The translations under genes were made by a program, and so were the position numbers. Under the pieces are notes generated by a model. The model was not told where the DNA came from. It was given only the letters and a program-made list of their open reading frames with translations, and searched no databases. From Mucilaginibacter sp. L294 (GTDB lineage: Bacteria; Bacteroidota; Bacteroidia; Sphingobacteriales; Sphingobacteriaceae), in contig NZ_LGEK01000011.1 of the NCBI RefSeq assembly GCF_001636615.1, positions 1-64,000 of the forward strand: 64,000 bases of DNA, in the 5' to 3' direction. Below, one piece after another: positions 59,385 to 64,000 of this stretch (position 1 is the first letter of the stretch; the number at the start of each line of letters is the position of its first letter).

Positions 59385-59864
59385 AGAGCCATGTTATTAA
59401 CCTGCTATATCCCAGCCTGGTCTAAGTTTAGCGCAGCGTAACTTACACCTAAAACTATGTAAGCTTTCAGCTTACACTACCCCAAAAGCCTGTTCCATTC
59501 GGGACAAAATGGAACGTAACGGAATAAGGCTTAAATTCATAATTAGCTATAAATCATATATTTAACTAAATAGCTACCCTGGCTTATAATTGGTATTATT
59601 GATTCTAAAAAGGGCGAACCAAGGGCGAAAAAAGGCGAAAAAAAGTCACTTTTTTCTGTTATTTGCCGGTTAATTTCTTGTTCCATTTTGCAAAAAGTGG
59701 AACAAAGGGCGGGTTTTTATAAGTGTTTAATATATAGATTTTTAATATGAAAATTGTGAAGTAAAACTTTAGATAGAAGAACAAAATTTAAATGTTAATT
59801 ACCTTATTTTCAAGATGTTCCATTTGTTCCGCTTGTTCCATTTCTCAGTGGAACAGAACAAGTT
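59385..59864. repeat. Gene-free region with GTTCCA dyads and AGGGCGAA repeats
   Basis: Family E hairpin (gtaagctttcagcttac) near 59459-59475. Then three dyads with GTTCCA/TGGAAC: 59492-59515, 59678-59705 and 59815-59862 (the last has GTTCC three times, then TGGAAC). Between them AGGGCGAA is repeated at 59611, 59622 and, as AAGGCGAA, 59632. No gene is seen in 480 bases. The third dyad lies just after egtD and may end its transcript, but without a T-run. Confidence 0.7.
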
Positions 59865-60851
59865 TTATTCGGCCGTCCAGATAGCATCTACAAACCATTT
59901 TTTGCCGTCGAAAAACTGGTTCAATGGTTTAAAGCCGGCCTTCGCTGCCAGTTCATGAGTTTGCTCAACCGCGTATTTTTGAGAGATCTCCATATCGATA
60001 TATTCATCTTTCAAAAAGCTGATGGTTTCGTCGCCAATCTTTACTTTCTGGTCGCTAAGGCTGATGAGGTAACTTTTACAGGCGCCTGTTTCGGGGTTAT
60101 AGGAGGCATAATGGTCAAACTGGCGGGTGTTAAAGTCGCCGCCAAGCTCGCGGTTTATGCGTTCCAGCAGGTTAAGGTTAAAACGTTTGGTGATACCCTC
60201 GCTATCGTTATAAGCGGCCAAAACGGTTTTCGGGTTTTTCTTCAGGTCGATGCCGATCAGCACCATATCCCCTTCGGATAGGTTGCTGCGCAGTTCCCTG
60301 CAAAAGCCCTGGGCTACATTAACCGGCATGTTGCCCACGTTAGACCCCAGGAACATCACCACCTTGCGTTTGTTGGAAATAGACGCCGCTTTTTTCAGCA
60401 TATCAAAATACTCGCCGTTAAGGCCGGTTATATTGATGCCGGGCAGGGTAACAGGCAGTGTAATATTCAGGTATGATATTACATTTTCTGAGATATCTAT
60501 GGGCAGGTAGGTAAAATCGGCTTTATTGTCTATCAGGTATTTTAGTAACTGGGTTGATTTTGTGGCATCGCCGGCGCCAAGCTCTATCAGGTCGAAGGCG
60601 TCGCCACCGGCAATGATGGCTTTACAAATTTCGGCGGTTTGGCTGGTGAAGATCTCCATCTCGCAATTGGTGGGGTAGTAATCTTCGCAACCCATCAGCT
60701 CCTGGAAAATTTTATCGCCCTGGGCGTCATAAAAATATTTCGAATCCAGGCGTTTTGGCGTGGATGTTAAACCTTTTACAACGTCCTTATAGAACTGCTC
60801 GTCGGTAAGTACATTGGTTGTTTGTTGTGCTGCTGTGGTGGTGGAAGCCAT
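59865..60851 (-). CDS. egtD: L-histidine N-alpha-methyltransferase (ergothioneine pathway)
   Basis: A 328-residue SAM enzyme that methylates histidine three times to give hercynine, the first step of ergothioneine synthesis. KYFYDAQGDKIFQELMGCEDYYPTNCEMEIF segments (about 38-68) and the SAM motif LIELGAGD (88-95) are signatures of the family; N171 in LGSNVGN, E288 and S290 in MEISQKY stand where the EgtD histidine-binding residues are. Length is normal. It is the last gene of the operon, 18 bases after egtB. Confidence 0.95.
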   Translation of the reverse strand: MASTTTAAQQTTNVLTDEQFYKDVVKGLTSTPKRLDSKYFYDAQGDKIFQELMGCEDYYPTNCEMEIFTSQTAEICKAIIAGGDAFDLIELGAGDATKSTQLLKYLIDNKADFTYLPIDISENVISYLNITLPVTLPGINITGLNGEYFDMLKKAASISNKRKVVMFLGSNVGNMPVNVAQGFCRELRSNLSEGDMVLIGIDLKKNPKTVLAAYNDSEGITKRFNLNLLERINRELGGDFNTRQFDHYASYNPETGACKSYLISLSDQKVKIGDETISFLKDEYIDMEISQKYAVEQTHELAAKAGFKPLNQFFDGKKWFVDAIWTAE

Positions 60852-60869
60852 AGGTAATATGTTGTGGTA

Positions 60870-62021
60870 TTATTTAGCAAGACGTATGCCAGTAAACTGC
60901 CATCGCAGCTCCGGCTGAAAAAAATTGCGGTATGTGATGCGGCTATGATTAGGCGAGGTAACTTCAGATGCCCCACGTAATACTTTTTGGCCTACCATAA
61001 ATTTGCCGTTGTATTCGCCAATAGCACCCGGTGCTTTCGCAAAACCGGGGTAGGGCAGGTAAGCGCTTTCTGTCCATTCCCAGCGCAGGCCCCAGTTAAA
61101 TTGTTTGGCTGCAGCCTCCCATTCAAATTCTGTTGGCAGGCGCAGGCCTTTCCATGAGGCATAGGCATAAGCCTCGTAATAGCTGATGTGTGTAACCGCA
61201 TCATGCATATGAACAGGCTGTAGGCCATGGTAGGTATAGTTATGCCATTCGCTCTCTATATTGTGCCAGTACATGGGTGCTTGTACGTTATTGGTATTTA
61301 CCCAATCCCAACCGGCTGCATGCCAGTGGCGAAAATCGTGATAACCGCCATCGTTTATAAATTCAAGGTACTCGGCGTTGGTAACTAAATCCGGACTTAT
61401 CTCAAAAGCATTCAGGTAAACTTTGTGCCGGTTCAGCTCATTATCGAATGAAAAACCTTCGCCCTCAAAACCTATCTCGTAAATGCCTTCGTTCAATTTT
61501 ATGAATGGCGCGCCTGTTTTGTCCGATTTTGGCGAAACGTAGTCTTTTGAATAGGCCGGGAACAGCGGGTTATTACCCAGGATGTATTTAATATCGGTCA
61601 ATAAAAGCTCTTGATGTTGTTCTTCGTGGTTAAAGCCGAGCACCAATAATTCCTTTACATTGTCAGTGATGTCGCCGCAGGCAATAAAATTCAGCATAGC
61701 ATCATCTACATACTTGCGGTAACGTTTAATATCGATAACAGTTGGGCGGCTCAGGTTACCCCTGTCGGTACGGATAACGCGGTTGCCAACGGTTTCGTAA
61801 TAGCTGTTAAAAACATAATTGTAGTTGGGGTCAAATTCCTGGTATTCGGCGAAGTAAGGTTTCAGAATAAAGGTTTCGAAGAACCAGGTGGTGTGCCCTA
61901 TATGCCACTTAGGCGGACTAACATCAACCACAGGTTGTACCACATAATCTTCAATTTGCAGGGGTTCGCAAATTGCTTCGGTACGGTGGCGTACTTTTAT
62001 GTAACAGTCGGCTATGTCCAT
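60870..62021 (-). CDS. egtB: Hercynine oxygenase (ergothioneine sulfoxide synthase)
   Basis: A 383-residue non-heme iron enzyme that joins a thiol (cysteine or gamma-glutamylcysteine) to hercynine with oxygen. A DinB-like domain (about 1-150) carries iron ligands in KWHIGHTTWFFE (H43, near H40) and in NHEEQHQE (H132 and H136). The C-terminal formylglycine-enzyme-like domain (about 170-383) has EIGFEGEGFSFDNELNRH, LPTEFEWEAAA, LRWEWTESAY and VLRGASEVT. No egtA or egtC gene is here, which fits forms that use cysteine directly or a thiol from elsewhere; a C-S lyase (EgtE) is also missing from the window. It lies 3 bases after the transporter gene. Confidence 0.93.
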   Translation of the reverse strand: MDIADCYIKVRHRTEAICEPLQIEDYVVQPVVDVSPPKWHIGHTTWFFETFILKPYFAEYQEFDPNYNYVFNSYYETVGNRVIRTDRGNLSRPTVIDIKRYRKYVDDAMLNFIACGDITDNVKELLVLGFNHEEQHQELLLTDIKYILGNNPLFPAYSKDYVSPKSDKTGAPFIKLNEGIYEIGFEGEGFSFDNELNRHKVYLNAFEISPDLVTNAEYLEFINDGGYHDFRHWHAAGWDWVNTNNVQAPMYWHNIESEWHNYTYHGLQPVHMHDAVTHISYYEAYAYASWKGLRLPTEFEWEAAAKQFNWGLRWEWTESAYLPYPGFAKAPGAIGEYNGKFMVGQKVLRGASEVTSPNHSRITYRNFFQPELRWQFTGIRLAK

Positions 62022-62024
62022 AGT

Positions 62025-63596
62025 TTACTTGCTATCTAAATAGCGTTTAAGGTTCGAAATTGTTTTTATGTTTAACTCTTTTGCTTGCTGCTCGCGCATC
62101 ATTAATGCATACGCATTATTAAACCCAATTGGTTTTAACCATTTAATTTGATACCGTTTTTTAAACTCGGCCTGCACGTAATTGTAGGTGCTATCCTTAC
62201 TTACCTGAAGCTTTGTAACCGTTTGCGTCGGTGTCTGTAATATTGCCAGCAAGCCGGTGCCGGTGTATTCTGGGTAAACGTCTATCTGGTCGTTGGTCAT
62301 GGCGTCAAAAACTATTTTGGTGCCGCCTAAGCCGGTTTTTGTGGCAACATCATAATTGGTGTAGCCTTTTATCAGCATAGTATACATGCTGGCTAAAATG
62401 TACTGCTCGCCAAATATTTTTGAGCCGATACGCACCACGGCTTCATGGCCTCCGCGCTCAGGTTTGTACAGTTTTTTCGATACCAGAAAATCTTTGGCTA
62501 CCCGCTCGGGTGTTTGGTGAAGGTAGTCGGTTTTGTAGTTTAGTTCGGTCATTACCGAGTCAGTAATTGTGCCGGCCAGCAGGTTCAGTGTTTTTTCCAG
62601 TTCGGGGAATTTACGCAAGGCGTCTTCCCGAACAATTGGCGCCGCATAATAGGGAGGGAAGATCTTTTTATCATCATCCAGCACCACCAGGTTATAAGCT
62701 TTCAAACGCCCATCGGTACTGTAACCGCTTATTACGTCAAGTTCCTTCTCCTGCGCGGCCTTATACATTACCGCGTCGTTTATCACAATGGTGTGGATCT
62801 TTAATCCATATTTGCTGATGAGGCCCAGGTTGCCATCCTGCCGGCCCATAAACTCGGGCGTAAAGCCTGCCGTAAGCTTGCTGCCATAGGCCGATGGGAT
62901 GAAGTATAAGCCCGATAATAATATCAACAAAACCGGGGCCATCTTAACCGCGCCTTTTATCTTTTTAAAGTTGAGCCTTTGCAATCGCGATAGCAGAAAA
63001 TCGAACAAAATAGCCAATGCCGCCGCCGGAATGGCACCTGCCAATATCATATTAGTGTTGTTTAGCGAAATGCCCCCGAAAATAAATTCGCCCAGGCCGC
63101 CCGCCGCAATATAGGATGCCAGTGTAGCCACCCCTACATTAATCACCGTAGCGGTACGGATACCTGCTAATATAACCGGCATAGCCAGCGGCAATTCTAC
63201 TTTGAATAATACCTGCCATTTGTTCATGCCCATGGCTACAGCGGCTTCTTTAACAGATGCATCAACCCCGGTAATGCCCGTATACGTATTACGGATGATG
63301 GGAAGCAAAGCGTAAAGCAGTAAAGCTACGATAGCAGGTTTGGCGCCGATGCCCAAAACAGGGATCATAAAACCAAGTAGCGCAATACTGGGGATGGTTT
63401 GTAAGATGCCCGCAATGCCCAATACGATACCCGAAAGCTGTTTTTTGCGGGTAATATAAATACCTAAAGGCAACCCAACCAGTACGGCAATAAACAACGA
63501 AATAAAAGTAAGGCCGATATGCTGCATAGTTTGCACGCCAAGCTTATCGGCTTGTTGCTGCATAAATTCCCACAGGGTTTGCTGATGCTCATTCAT
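62025..63596 (-). CDS. ABC transporter permease fused to a circularly permuted OpuC/EgtU-type binding domain
   Basis: A 523-residue inner-membrane protein. The permease (about 1-235) has about six helices and the EAA loop at 117-149 (EAAVAMGMNKWQ...), like ProW/OpuCB and EgtU. The periplasmic binding domain (236-523) belongs to the glycine betaine/choline/ergothioneine class, but in swapped order. First come GRQDGNLGL (251-259), GYSTDGR (291-297) and DDDKKIFPPYYAAPIVR (307-323), then RIGSKIFGEQ (389-398), YPEYTGTG (441-448) and GFNNAYAL (491-498), which in unpermuted relatives stand at the N-terminus. It should bind a trimethylammonium compound. Placed 3 bases before egtB, ergothioneine or hercynine is the likely substrate; choline or betaine is the alternative. 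Confidence 0.88.
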   Translation of the reverse strand: MNEHQQTLWEFMQQQADKLGVQTMQHIGLTFISLFIAVLVGLPLGIYITRKKQLSGIVLGIAGILQTIPSIALLGFMIPVLGIGAKPAIVALLLYALLPIIRNTYTGITGVDASVKEAAVAMGMNKWQVLFKVELPLAMPVILAGIRTATVINVGVATLASYIAAGGLGEFIFGGISLNNTNMILAGAIPAAALAILFDFLLSRLQRLNFKKIKGAVKMAPVLLILLSGLYFIPSAYGSKLTAGFTPEFMGRQDGNLGLISKYGLKIHTIVINDAVMYKAAQEKELDVISGYSTDGRLKAYNLVVLDDDKKIFPPYYAAPIVREDALRKFPELEKTLNLLAGTITDSVMTELNYKTDYLHQTPERVAKDFLVSKKLYKPERGGHEAVVRIGSKIFGEQYILASMYTMLIKGYTNYDVATKTGLGGTKIVFDAMTNDQIDVYPEYTGTGLLAILQTPTQTVTKLQVSKDSTYNYVQAEFKKRYQIKWLKPIGFNNAYALMMREQQAKELNIKTISNLKRYLDSK

Positions 63597-64000
63597 GTGC
63601 CTTGTGGGTTTTATATTTTGAAAATGCGGCCATCAACTGGTCGAACGTGATGCCTTTTACTTCTTTACTTTTCTCGTCAAAAATATCAAGGCTTTCGCGG
63701 GAAGAGAACTTGAAAGTTTCCAGCGCTTCCCATATACCGGCTTTCGCTGATAATTGCGAAGTGTTTGTTTTTTTACCAGTATCGGGTAGGTGTTCCCAAA
63801 TATCTATCAGCTTAATAATCTTAAATTCCAGTTGCAGGTGCTGCTCTTTTAGAAAATCACTTACAAAATCGTTAGCCGGTTTAAACAACAAGTCGGCGGG
63901 TGTGCCAATTTGCACTATTTTGCCTTTATCCATCAATGCTATGCGGTCGGCCAGTTCAAAGGCCTCCTGCACATCGTGCGTAACCATGATGATGGTTTTG
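63589..64000 (-). CDS. ABC transporter ATP-binding protein, C-terminal part (partial)
   Basis: The coding frame continues past the window end. The visible 137 residues begin KTIIMVTHDVQEAFELADRI, which is the H-loop and switch region of an ATPase, then MDKGKIVQIGTPADLLFKPANDFVSDFL, typical of the ProV/OpuCA class. The tail after about residue 50 (DIWEHLPDTGKKTNTSQLSAKAG...) is in the place of CBS domains but looks short and degenerate. It overlaps the permease-fusion gene by 8 bases, so it is its partner and the first gene of this operon seen here. Walker A and B are outside the window. Confidence 0.9.
   Translation of the reverse strand, partial: KTIIMVTHDVQEAFELADRIALMDKGKIVQIGTPADLLFKPANDFVSDFLKEQHLQLEFKIIKLIDIWEHLPDTGKKTNTSQLSAKAGIWEALETFKFSSRESLDIFDEKSKEVKGITFDQLMAAFSKYKTHKAHE

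Follow-up and report, generated by a model that had tools for sequence, protein, structure and literature searches.

Why would a bacterium that makes ergothioneine also need to take it up? EgtU has been presented as the route by which bacteria that do not produce ergothioneine obtain it (PMC9732360). In the genome of Mucilaginibacter sp. L294 (NCBI RefSeq assembly GCF_001636615.1), an EgtU-like ATP-binding cassette (ABC) importer lies beside egtD and egtB, two genes of ergothioneine synthesis, and in a family sample of 121 genomes we found this importer only where synthesis genes were also present. The window, meaning the whole stretch of 64,000 nucleotides that was analyzed, covers positions 1 to 64,000 of contig NZ_LGEK01000011.1 (C242; 97,515 bases in an assembly of 5.25 Mb), and its closest organism-named proteins are those of Mucilaginibacter. 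Because the egt genes lie beside a permuted importer, and often a disulfide reductase, in many Bacteroidota, we read the conserved cluster with moderate confidence as one unit that makes ergothioneine, recaptures histidine-betaines, and re-reduces oxidized ergothioneine.

The initial annotation had placed the importer ATPase, a permease-binding-protein fusion, egtB, and egtD on the minus strand, and its open reading frames and junctions proved exact: an 8-base overlap between the ATPase and fusion genes, a 3-base gap before egtB, and an 18-base gap before egtD. The cluster is larger than the content of the window showed. It extends upstream of the ATPase past the window edge, where the genes for a flavin disulfide reductase and then a DUF427 protein follow on the same strand, the DUF427 stop codon overlapping the reductase start codon as ATGA. 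The features are listed here with contig positions, and those that run past the window edge also with their positions on L002.

59865-60851, minus strand: egtD, histidine N-alpha-methyltransferase, 328 amino acids (Methyltransf_33)
60870-62021, minus strand: egtB, sulfoxide synthase, 383 amino acids (TIGR03440)
62025-63596, minus strand: fusion of a permease with a circularly permuted betaine-class substrate-binding domain, 523 amino acids (BPD_transp_1, OpuAC)
62460-62885, minus strand: first half of the fused binding domain, equivalent to the C-terminal half of EgtUC, fusion residues 238-379
62028-62435, minus strand: second half of the fused binding domain, equivalent to the N-terminal half of EgtUC, fusion residues 388-523
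63589-64000, minus strand: part of the importer ATPase within the window, whose edge cuts the gene (ABC_tran)
63589-64554 (L002:5590-6555), minus strand: complete importer ATPase on contig C242, 321 amino acids
64562-65953 (L002:6563-7954), minus strand: flavin disulfide reductase, beyond the window, about 463 amino acids (Pyr_redox_2 and dimerization domain)
65950-66231 (C242; L002:7951-8232), minus strand: DUF427 protein, beyond the window, about 93 amino acids (DUF427, 3.2e-32)

Together, egtD, egtB, the ABC importer genes, the flavin disulfide reductase gene, and the DUF427 gene likely form one operon.

We examined co-occurrence in the family sample using E-value thresholds of 1e-50 for EgtB, 1e-10 for EgtD, 1e-100 for the reductase, and 1e-10 for DUF427. 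The full-length fusion was found in 36 genomes, EgtB in 54, EgtD in 56, the reductase in 39, and DUF427 in 24. All 36 transporter genomes contained both egtB and egtD, with same-strand linkage in 31. While egtB occurred without the transporter in 18 genomes, the transporter occurred without egtB in none. The reductase was present in 34 of the transporter genomes, being linked in 29 (same strand in 27, convergent in 2) and located elsewhere in 5; it was not found in the remaining 2. Among the 54 egtB genomes, 34 of the 36 transporter genomes thus carried the reductase, versus 3 of the 18 that lacked the transporter. DUF427 was found in 23 transporter genomes and one other. Some genomes were arranged differently: two had the transporter and reductase adjacent with egtB and egtD elsewhere (G020 and G055), two had other gene orders (G099 and G102), and three had the genes unlinked, yet all present (G040, G050, and G054). 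In one further genome (G027), egtB and egtD were both partial and lay at contig ends.

The grouping also recurred among named loci. By scanning genome contigs with an eight-sequence alignment, we obtained at least 583 confirmed matches in Bacteroidota, used the best 80, and read their neighbors within at most 8 kb on each side, some contigs being shorter. These 80 loci are nearest to a query set that was mostly egt-linked, which biases their linkage rate upward; the genome samples are fairer. The genera represented include Mucilaginibacter, Pedobacter, Sphingobacterium, Olivibacter, Chitinophaga, Niastella, Segetibacter, Dyadobacter, Chryseobacterium, and Flavobacterium, among others. Within these best 80 of at least 583 matches, the neighbors of the fusion were egtB (78), the ATPase (77), egtD (76), the reductase (52), and DUF427 (29); egtB was missing near the fusion at L087 and at L122, whose contig is 4 kb long. 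The order DUF427-reductase-ATPase-fusion-egtB-egtD was the arrangement in 28 loci and the same order without DUF427 in 19, followed by egtD-egtB-ATPase-fusion in 16 and ATPase-fusion-egtB-egtD in 9; eight further arrangements each occurred in a single locus. No other family of neighboring open reading frames (at least 90 amino acids and at least 35% identity) recurred in more than 12 of the 80 loci. The gene grouping reported in the initial annotation is not due to chance, given that the genes are kept together across dozens of species. Its proposed check, a search of relatives for the four-gene order, showed that the linkage is kept (78 of 80 loci with egtB), in several orders.

We then considered a sample of the phylum (n = 345; fusion threshold, E 1e-40), in which we distinguished type A, the permuted full-length fusion, from type B, a differently built fusion. 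Of the 28 permease-only genomes, 16 were read, and all of these were type B. Overall, 96 genomes had egtB, comprising 14 of the 16 with type A, 22 of the 28 permease-only genomes, and 60 of the 301 lacking both kinds of match. We retrieved the flanking sequence from 9 type A and 11 type B genomes. Either egtB or egtD lay beside the transporter in five of the type A flanks (egtD only in G199), and the type B fusion was linked to egtB/egtD in four of the type B flanks, from two other families. In one genome (G363), DUF427 lay directly ahead of the ATPase. At a threshold of E 1e-120, the reductase was found in 20 genomes, of which 11 were type A, 7 permease-only, and 2 neither. This conserved linkage and co-occurrence give good support for a coupling between synthesis and a betaine-class importer. 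To that extent, the initial annotation, which had coupled synthesis with import, holds up, including for type B (4 of 11 flanks); its choice of ergothioneine or hercynine as the ligand goes further, since the specificity residues of EgtU are replaced, as described below.

Homology assigns the two synthesis enzymes with different margins. The egtB product passes the curated equivalog test TIGR03440 (533 bits; cut-off, 360). Its nearest solved chains are those of the EgtB (Cabther) group and relatives (404 bits), which we take to be Chloracidobacterium EgtB, while 4x8b, presumably mycobacterial EgtB, scored only 110 bits. Residues H43, H132, H136, Y74, and Y75 are invariant in all 77 EgtB sequences, window included, and we assume that the three histidines bind iron. 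The egtD product matches Pfam Methyltransf_33 (PF10017) with 323 bits (1.7e-96; cut-off, 23). Against TIGR03438, it scored 287 bits, just below the cut-off of 290.9, and did not pass the curated equivalog test; the solved relatives found for it are EgtD chains. Positions aligned to EgtD Y39, F47, Y56, N166, Y206, and E282 are invariant in all 76 sequences, window included, the S284 position is kept in 75 of them, and all 76 cluster homologues, again including the window, carry Ser in place of M252. We take these aligned positions to be active-site residues, with M252 numbered from mycobacterial EgtD.

The initial annotation held that the last step of synthesis must be encoded elsewhere. This fits the window's own genome, which had no EgtE (TIGR04343) over the cut-off (best match, 99.6 bits; cut-off, 400) and no match to a PatB-type C-S lyase at E 1e-30. 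EgtE passed its cut-off in none of 21 genomes, this one included, and in none of 14 control genomes either, leaving that search with no positive control. Among relatives, 6 of the 80 named loci (L098, L105, L115, L128, L132, and L140) have a gene for a PatB-family C-S lyase immediately behind the fusion. The two that were scanned scored 440 and 437 bits (cut-off, 340), and the lyase is a candidate for the last ergothioneine step in those six loci. In a genome without the transporter (G042), a PatB-family C-S lyase gene lies less than 30 bases after egtB.

The complete importer ATPase scored 311 bits against TIGR01186 (proV), just below the cut-off of 326.6, and matched ABC_tran at 2.7e-40. Its Walker A Lys, Q-loop Gln, signature Ser, Walker B Glu, and H-loop His are invariant in 70 of 70 sequences. 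In the reductase, the C40-x4-C45 pair and the C-terminal H445/E450 pair (numbering of the 461-residue query) are invariant in 51 of 51 sequences. With its C-x4-C motif and C-terminal His-Glu, the protein is predicted to be a class I flavoprotein disulfide reductase; an extra cysteine, Cys350, is kept in at least 95% of the 51. The best NCBIfam models were generic flavin adenine dinucleotide (FAD) oxidoreductases, with scores below their cut-offs, and the reductase did not pass the models for RclA, MerA, hypothiocyanous acid (HOSCN) reductase, or glutathione reductase. Its closest solved chain is 6kgy, which we take to be RclA. On the basis of linkage, the protein is a candidate ergothioneine-disulfide reductase. 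In 17 of the 24 family genomes with a DUF427 match, that match ends 2 to 21 bp ahead of the one to the reductase. DUF427 also precedes the reductase where the latter is away from the transporter (G075) and where egtB and the transporter were not found (G100).

The binding domain fused to the permease is circularly permuted relative to EgtUC, combining an EgtUC-like sequence with an OpuAC-like chain order. Both of its halves align to EgtUC, with their order swapped, and the canonical EgtU-type order after the permease (N-terminal half, then C-terminal half) is not the one found in the fusion. In Foldseek, EgtUC aligned over one half only, and the better-matching half is 46% identical to EgtUC. 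In VIA-align, the rows other than OpuA and OpuAC cover the permease; EgtUC, AfProX, and OpuBC lie outside its 50 rows, which excludes nothing. The initial annotation had correctly recognized a permease fused to a binding domain and had passed over the permuted order of that domain. Permutation as such is already known rather than new: it has been reported among glycine betaine-binding proteins (PMC2395249), although the covered passages of PMC2861598 make no mention of it. The domain represents a natural circular permutation within the Tyr-cage betaine family.

We compared the pocket in 52 type A proteins, numbering positions after SpEgtUC (PMC9732360). The positions K242, T275, T296, N339, Y341, E375, R379, and Y443 are kept in all 52 and I243 in 49, while at the Y419 position 46 have Tyr and 6 have Ser. 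The loci with Ser at this cage position (L072, L094, L112, L125, L134, and L139) are all from Chitinophaga. Because the cage, carboxylate, and imidazole contacts are kept, import of hercynine or ergothioneine by this transporter is likely, as judged from its sequence.

If the cluster works as one unit, EgtD would make hercynine and EgtB would add the cysteine sulfur to give the sulfoxide, from which a C-S lyase encoded elsewhere would finish ergothioneine. Outside the inner membrane, the binding domain would capture a carboxylated betaine (hercynine or ergothioneine) in a Tyr cage with a Lys/Arg/Thr carboxylate clamp, the Glu possibly holding the imidazole, and the fused permease would import it with the ATPase. 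Hercynine, whether imported or formed from over-oxidized ergothioneine, could be re-sulfurized by EgtB, and the reductase might use NAD(P)H to convert ergothioneine disulfide back to the thiol. Over-oxidation of ergothioneine disulfide is described as giving hercynine, the desulfurized product, and mammalian selenium thioredoxin reductase as reducing the disulfide directly (PMC8868364). The least secure parts of this scheme are which ligand the importer carries and which substrate the reductase acts on. We advance only tentatively, and think rather unlikely, the fuller proposal of a self-contained ergothioneine cycle, in which synthesis by EgtD and EgtB would be joined by recapture through the permuted importer, disulfide reduction by a dedicated flavoenzyme, repair of hercynine in a second round by EgtB, and DUF427 as a helper of the reductase. 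A single purified domain would suffice for a direct test of the candidate ligands.

Several results weigh against interpreting the cluster as a unit of synthesis, recapture, and re-reduction. In the pocket, G244 is replaced by Phe (F395) and F293 by Tyr (Y444) in 52 of 52 proteins. Both are named as determinants of ergothioneine specificity, and in SpEgtUC the G244F substitution weakened ergothioneine binding about 100-fold and F293Y to a smaller extent, compared with about 500-fold for E375Q (PMC9732360). The same pocket is present in homologues without linked egtB/egtD. Two of the 16 permuted-fusion genomes in the phylum sample (genomes G199 and G244) gave no egtB at E 1e-50, as did five of the six transporter genomes of family f35. 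The reductase lay beside the transporter in none of the 20 wider flanks from other families, where there was one match of 32% (G149). Among the 20 reductase-bearing phylum genomes, 13 have egtB and 7 gave none, 5 of these belonging to f35; in the family sample, two genomes, G100 (with DUF427) and G037, carry the reductase without egtB or the transporter. Curated models return dihydrolipoyl dehydrogenase, passed by 3 bits, or a generic FAD oxidoreductase. Finally, the co-occurrence counts and Fisher values ignore phylogeny.

It is possible, if distinctly less probable than a single ergothioneine unit, that glycine betaine or a similar osmoprotectant is what the importer brings in, and that the importer merely shares the cluster with the ergothioneine genes, for example, because both are stress-induced. 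The Y337 position is Phe in all 52 proteins, and Phe/Tyr/Phe at 244/293/337 is the set described for the glycine betaine binder AfProX, in which a Glu aligned to E375 is likewise important for glycine betaine (PMC9732360). This set, together with cage and clamp, recurs in the 16 type B proteins compared, both egt-linked and unlinked, one of which carries Ser in place of T275. Of 22 type A rows compared, 20 show it as well; in the type A fusions of G199 and G399, residues 243-244 are Leu-Gln. Among the positions compared, no residue separated egt-linked from unlinked homologues. Because the same pocket occurs in unlinked homologues, some of them in genomes where no egtB was found, including five of six in f35, the pocket does not single out histidine-betaines. 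Sources also label close homologues as osmoprotectant transport permease or ABC transporter permease. An osmoprotectant role sits less easily with the egtB/egtD linkage, which survives rearrangements and recurs for the type B fusion in two other families, or with the family sample, in which the transporter was never without egtB (36 of 36). The pocket would therefore point to a carboxylated betaine and the linkage to a histidine-betaine, with neither discriminating ergothioneine from hercynine.

We regard it as improbable that the importer scavenges ergothioneine specifically and with high affinity, like EgtU of Streptococcus pneumoniae, and does so alongside synthesis. The 46% identity of the better-matching domain half to EgtUC would fit such a role, as would the retention of the E375, R379, K242, T275, and T296 positions in all 52 proteins. 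However, G244 and F293, both tied to ergothioneine affinity (PMC9732360), are replaced in every one of them. High-affinity import as in S. pneumoniae is doubtful on these residues, and comparative genomics does not support specificity for ergothioneine. In Helicobacter pylori, which lies outside the EgtU subcluster, ergothioneine is taken up with lower affinity (PMC9732360). Filing the importer as EgtU was rejected after chain order and G244/F293 had both been examined and neither matched EgtU.

It is very unlikely that the cluster is simply inherited or mobile as a block, with importer and reductase not functionally coupled to ergothioneine: the counts ignore phylogeny, order is constant within genera, and the reductase also occurs without egtB, but order has been shuffled with linkage kept (egtD-egtB-ATPase-permease, egtB-egtD-reductase-ATPase-permease, and egtD-reductase-ATPase-permease-egtB), and G040, G050, and G054 hold all of the genes unlinked.

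Some other observations concern the surroundings of the cluster. A phytanoyl-CoA-dioxygenase-like gene, named by eye, occurs in 12 of the 80 named loci (including L081), about 3.9 kb downstream of the fusion start and on the opposite strand in 11 of them. At one locus (L015; G013:C1:109234-110793), the fusion homologue has an internal stop near its start, reflecting a broken gene or a sequencing error. Downstream of egtD, the gap at 59385-59864 contains several TGGAACA/TGTTCCA repeats, and four of the five matches to ATGGAACA in the whole window fall there; five matches to ATGGAACA in 64 kb compare with 2.0 expected, a count reached by 7 of 100 shuffles. A literature search that included few subscription journals returned no title on an egt-transporter operon in Bacteroidota.

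How does the cluster compare with known systems? The reductase shares its C-x4-C redox pair and C-terminal His-Glu pair with RclA, MerA, and Har-type reductases, but it passes none of the RclA, MerA, HOSCN reductase, or glutathione reductase models and carries the extra Cys350. As in the known EgtB-EgtD pathway, both synthesis enzymes are present, EgtB with its catalytic residues and EgtD with most of the presumed active-site positions retained, and EgtB is nearest to that of Chloracidobacterium; unlike in that pathway, the cluster genes here stand without egtA, egtC, or a C-S lyase gene, and EgtD has Ser at the M252 position. With OpuA/OpuAC, sequence identity is 16%, and the cage of OpuAC is built from Trp side chains, whereas here it consists of Tyr (PMC9732360). 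AfProX and the OpuBC/OpuCC class have the same Tyr cage, and AfProX has the same Phe/Tyr/Phe at 244/293/337; their chain order differs, matching in two swapped stretches, and the solved chains are not fused to a permease. EgtU of S. pneumoniae (Firmicutes) likewise combines an ATPase with a permease fused to an OpuAC-type binding domain, and most of its cage, clamp, and imidazole-contact positions are retained in the Bacteroidota fusion (PMC9732360). In EgtU, however, the domain is unpermuted and has G244/F293, whereas here it is permuted and has Phe/Tyr at those positions. The EgtU paper, in the parts drawn on here, concerns bacteria that scavenge ergothioneine (PMC9732360), whereas in Mucilaginibacter and its relatives the importer sits with the genes for synthesis.

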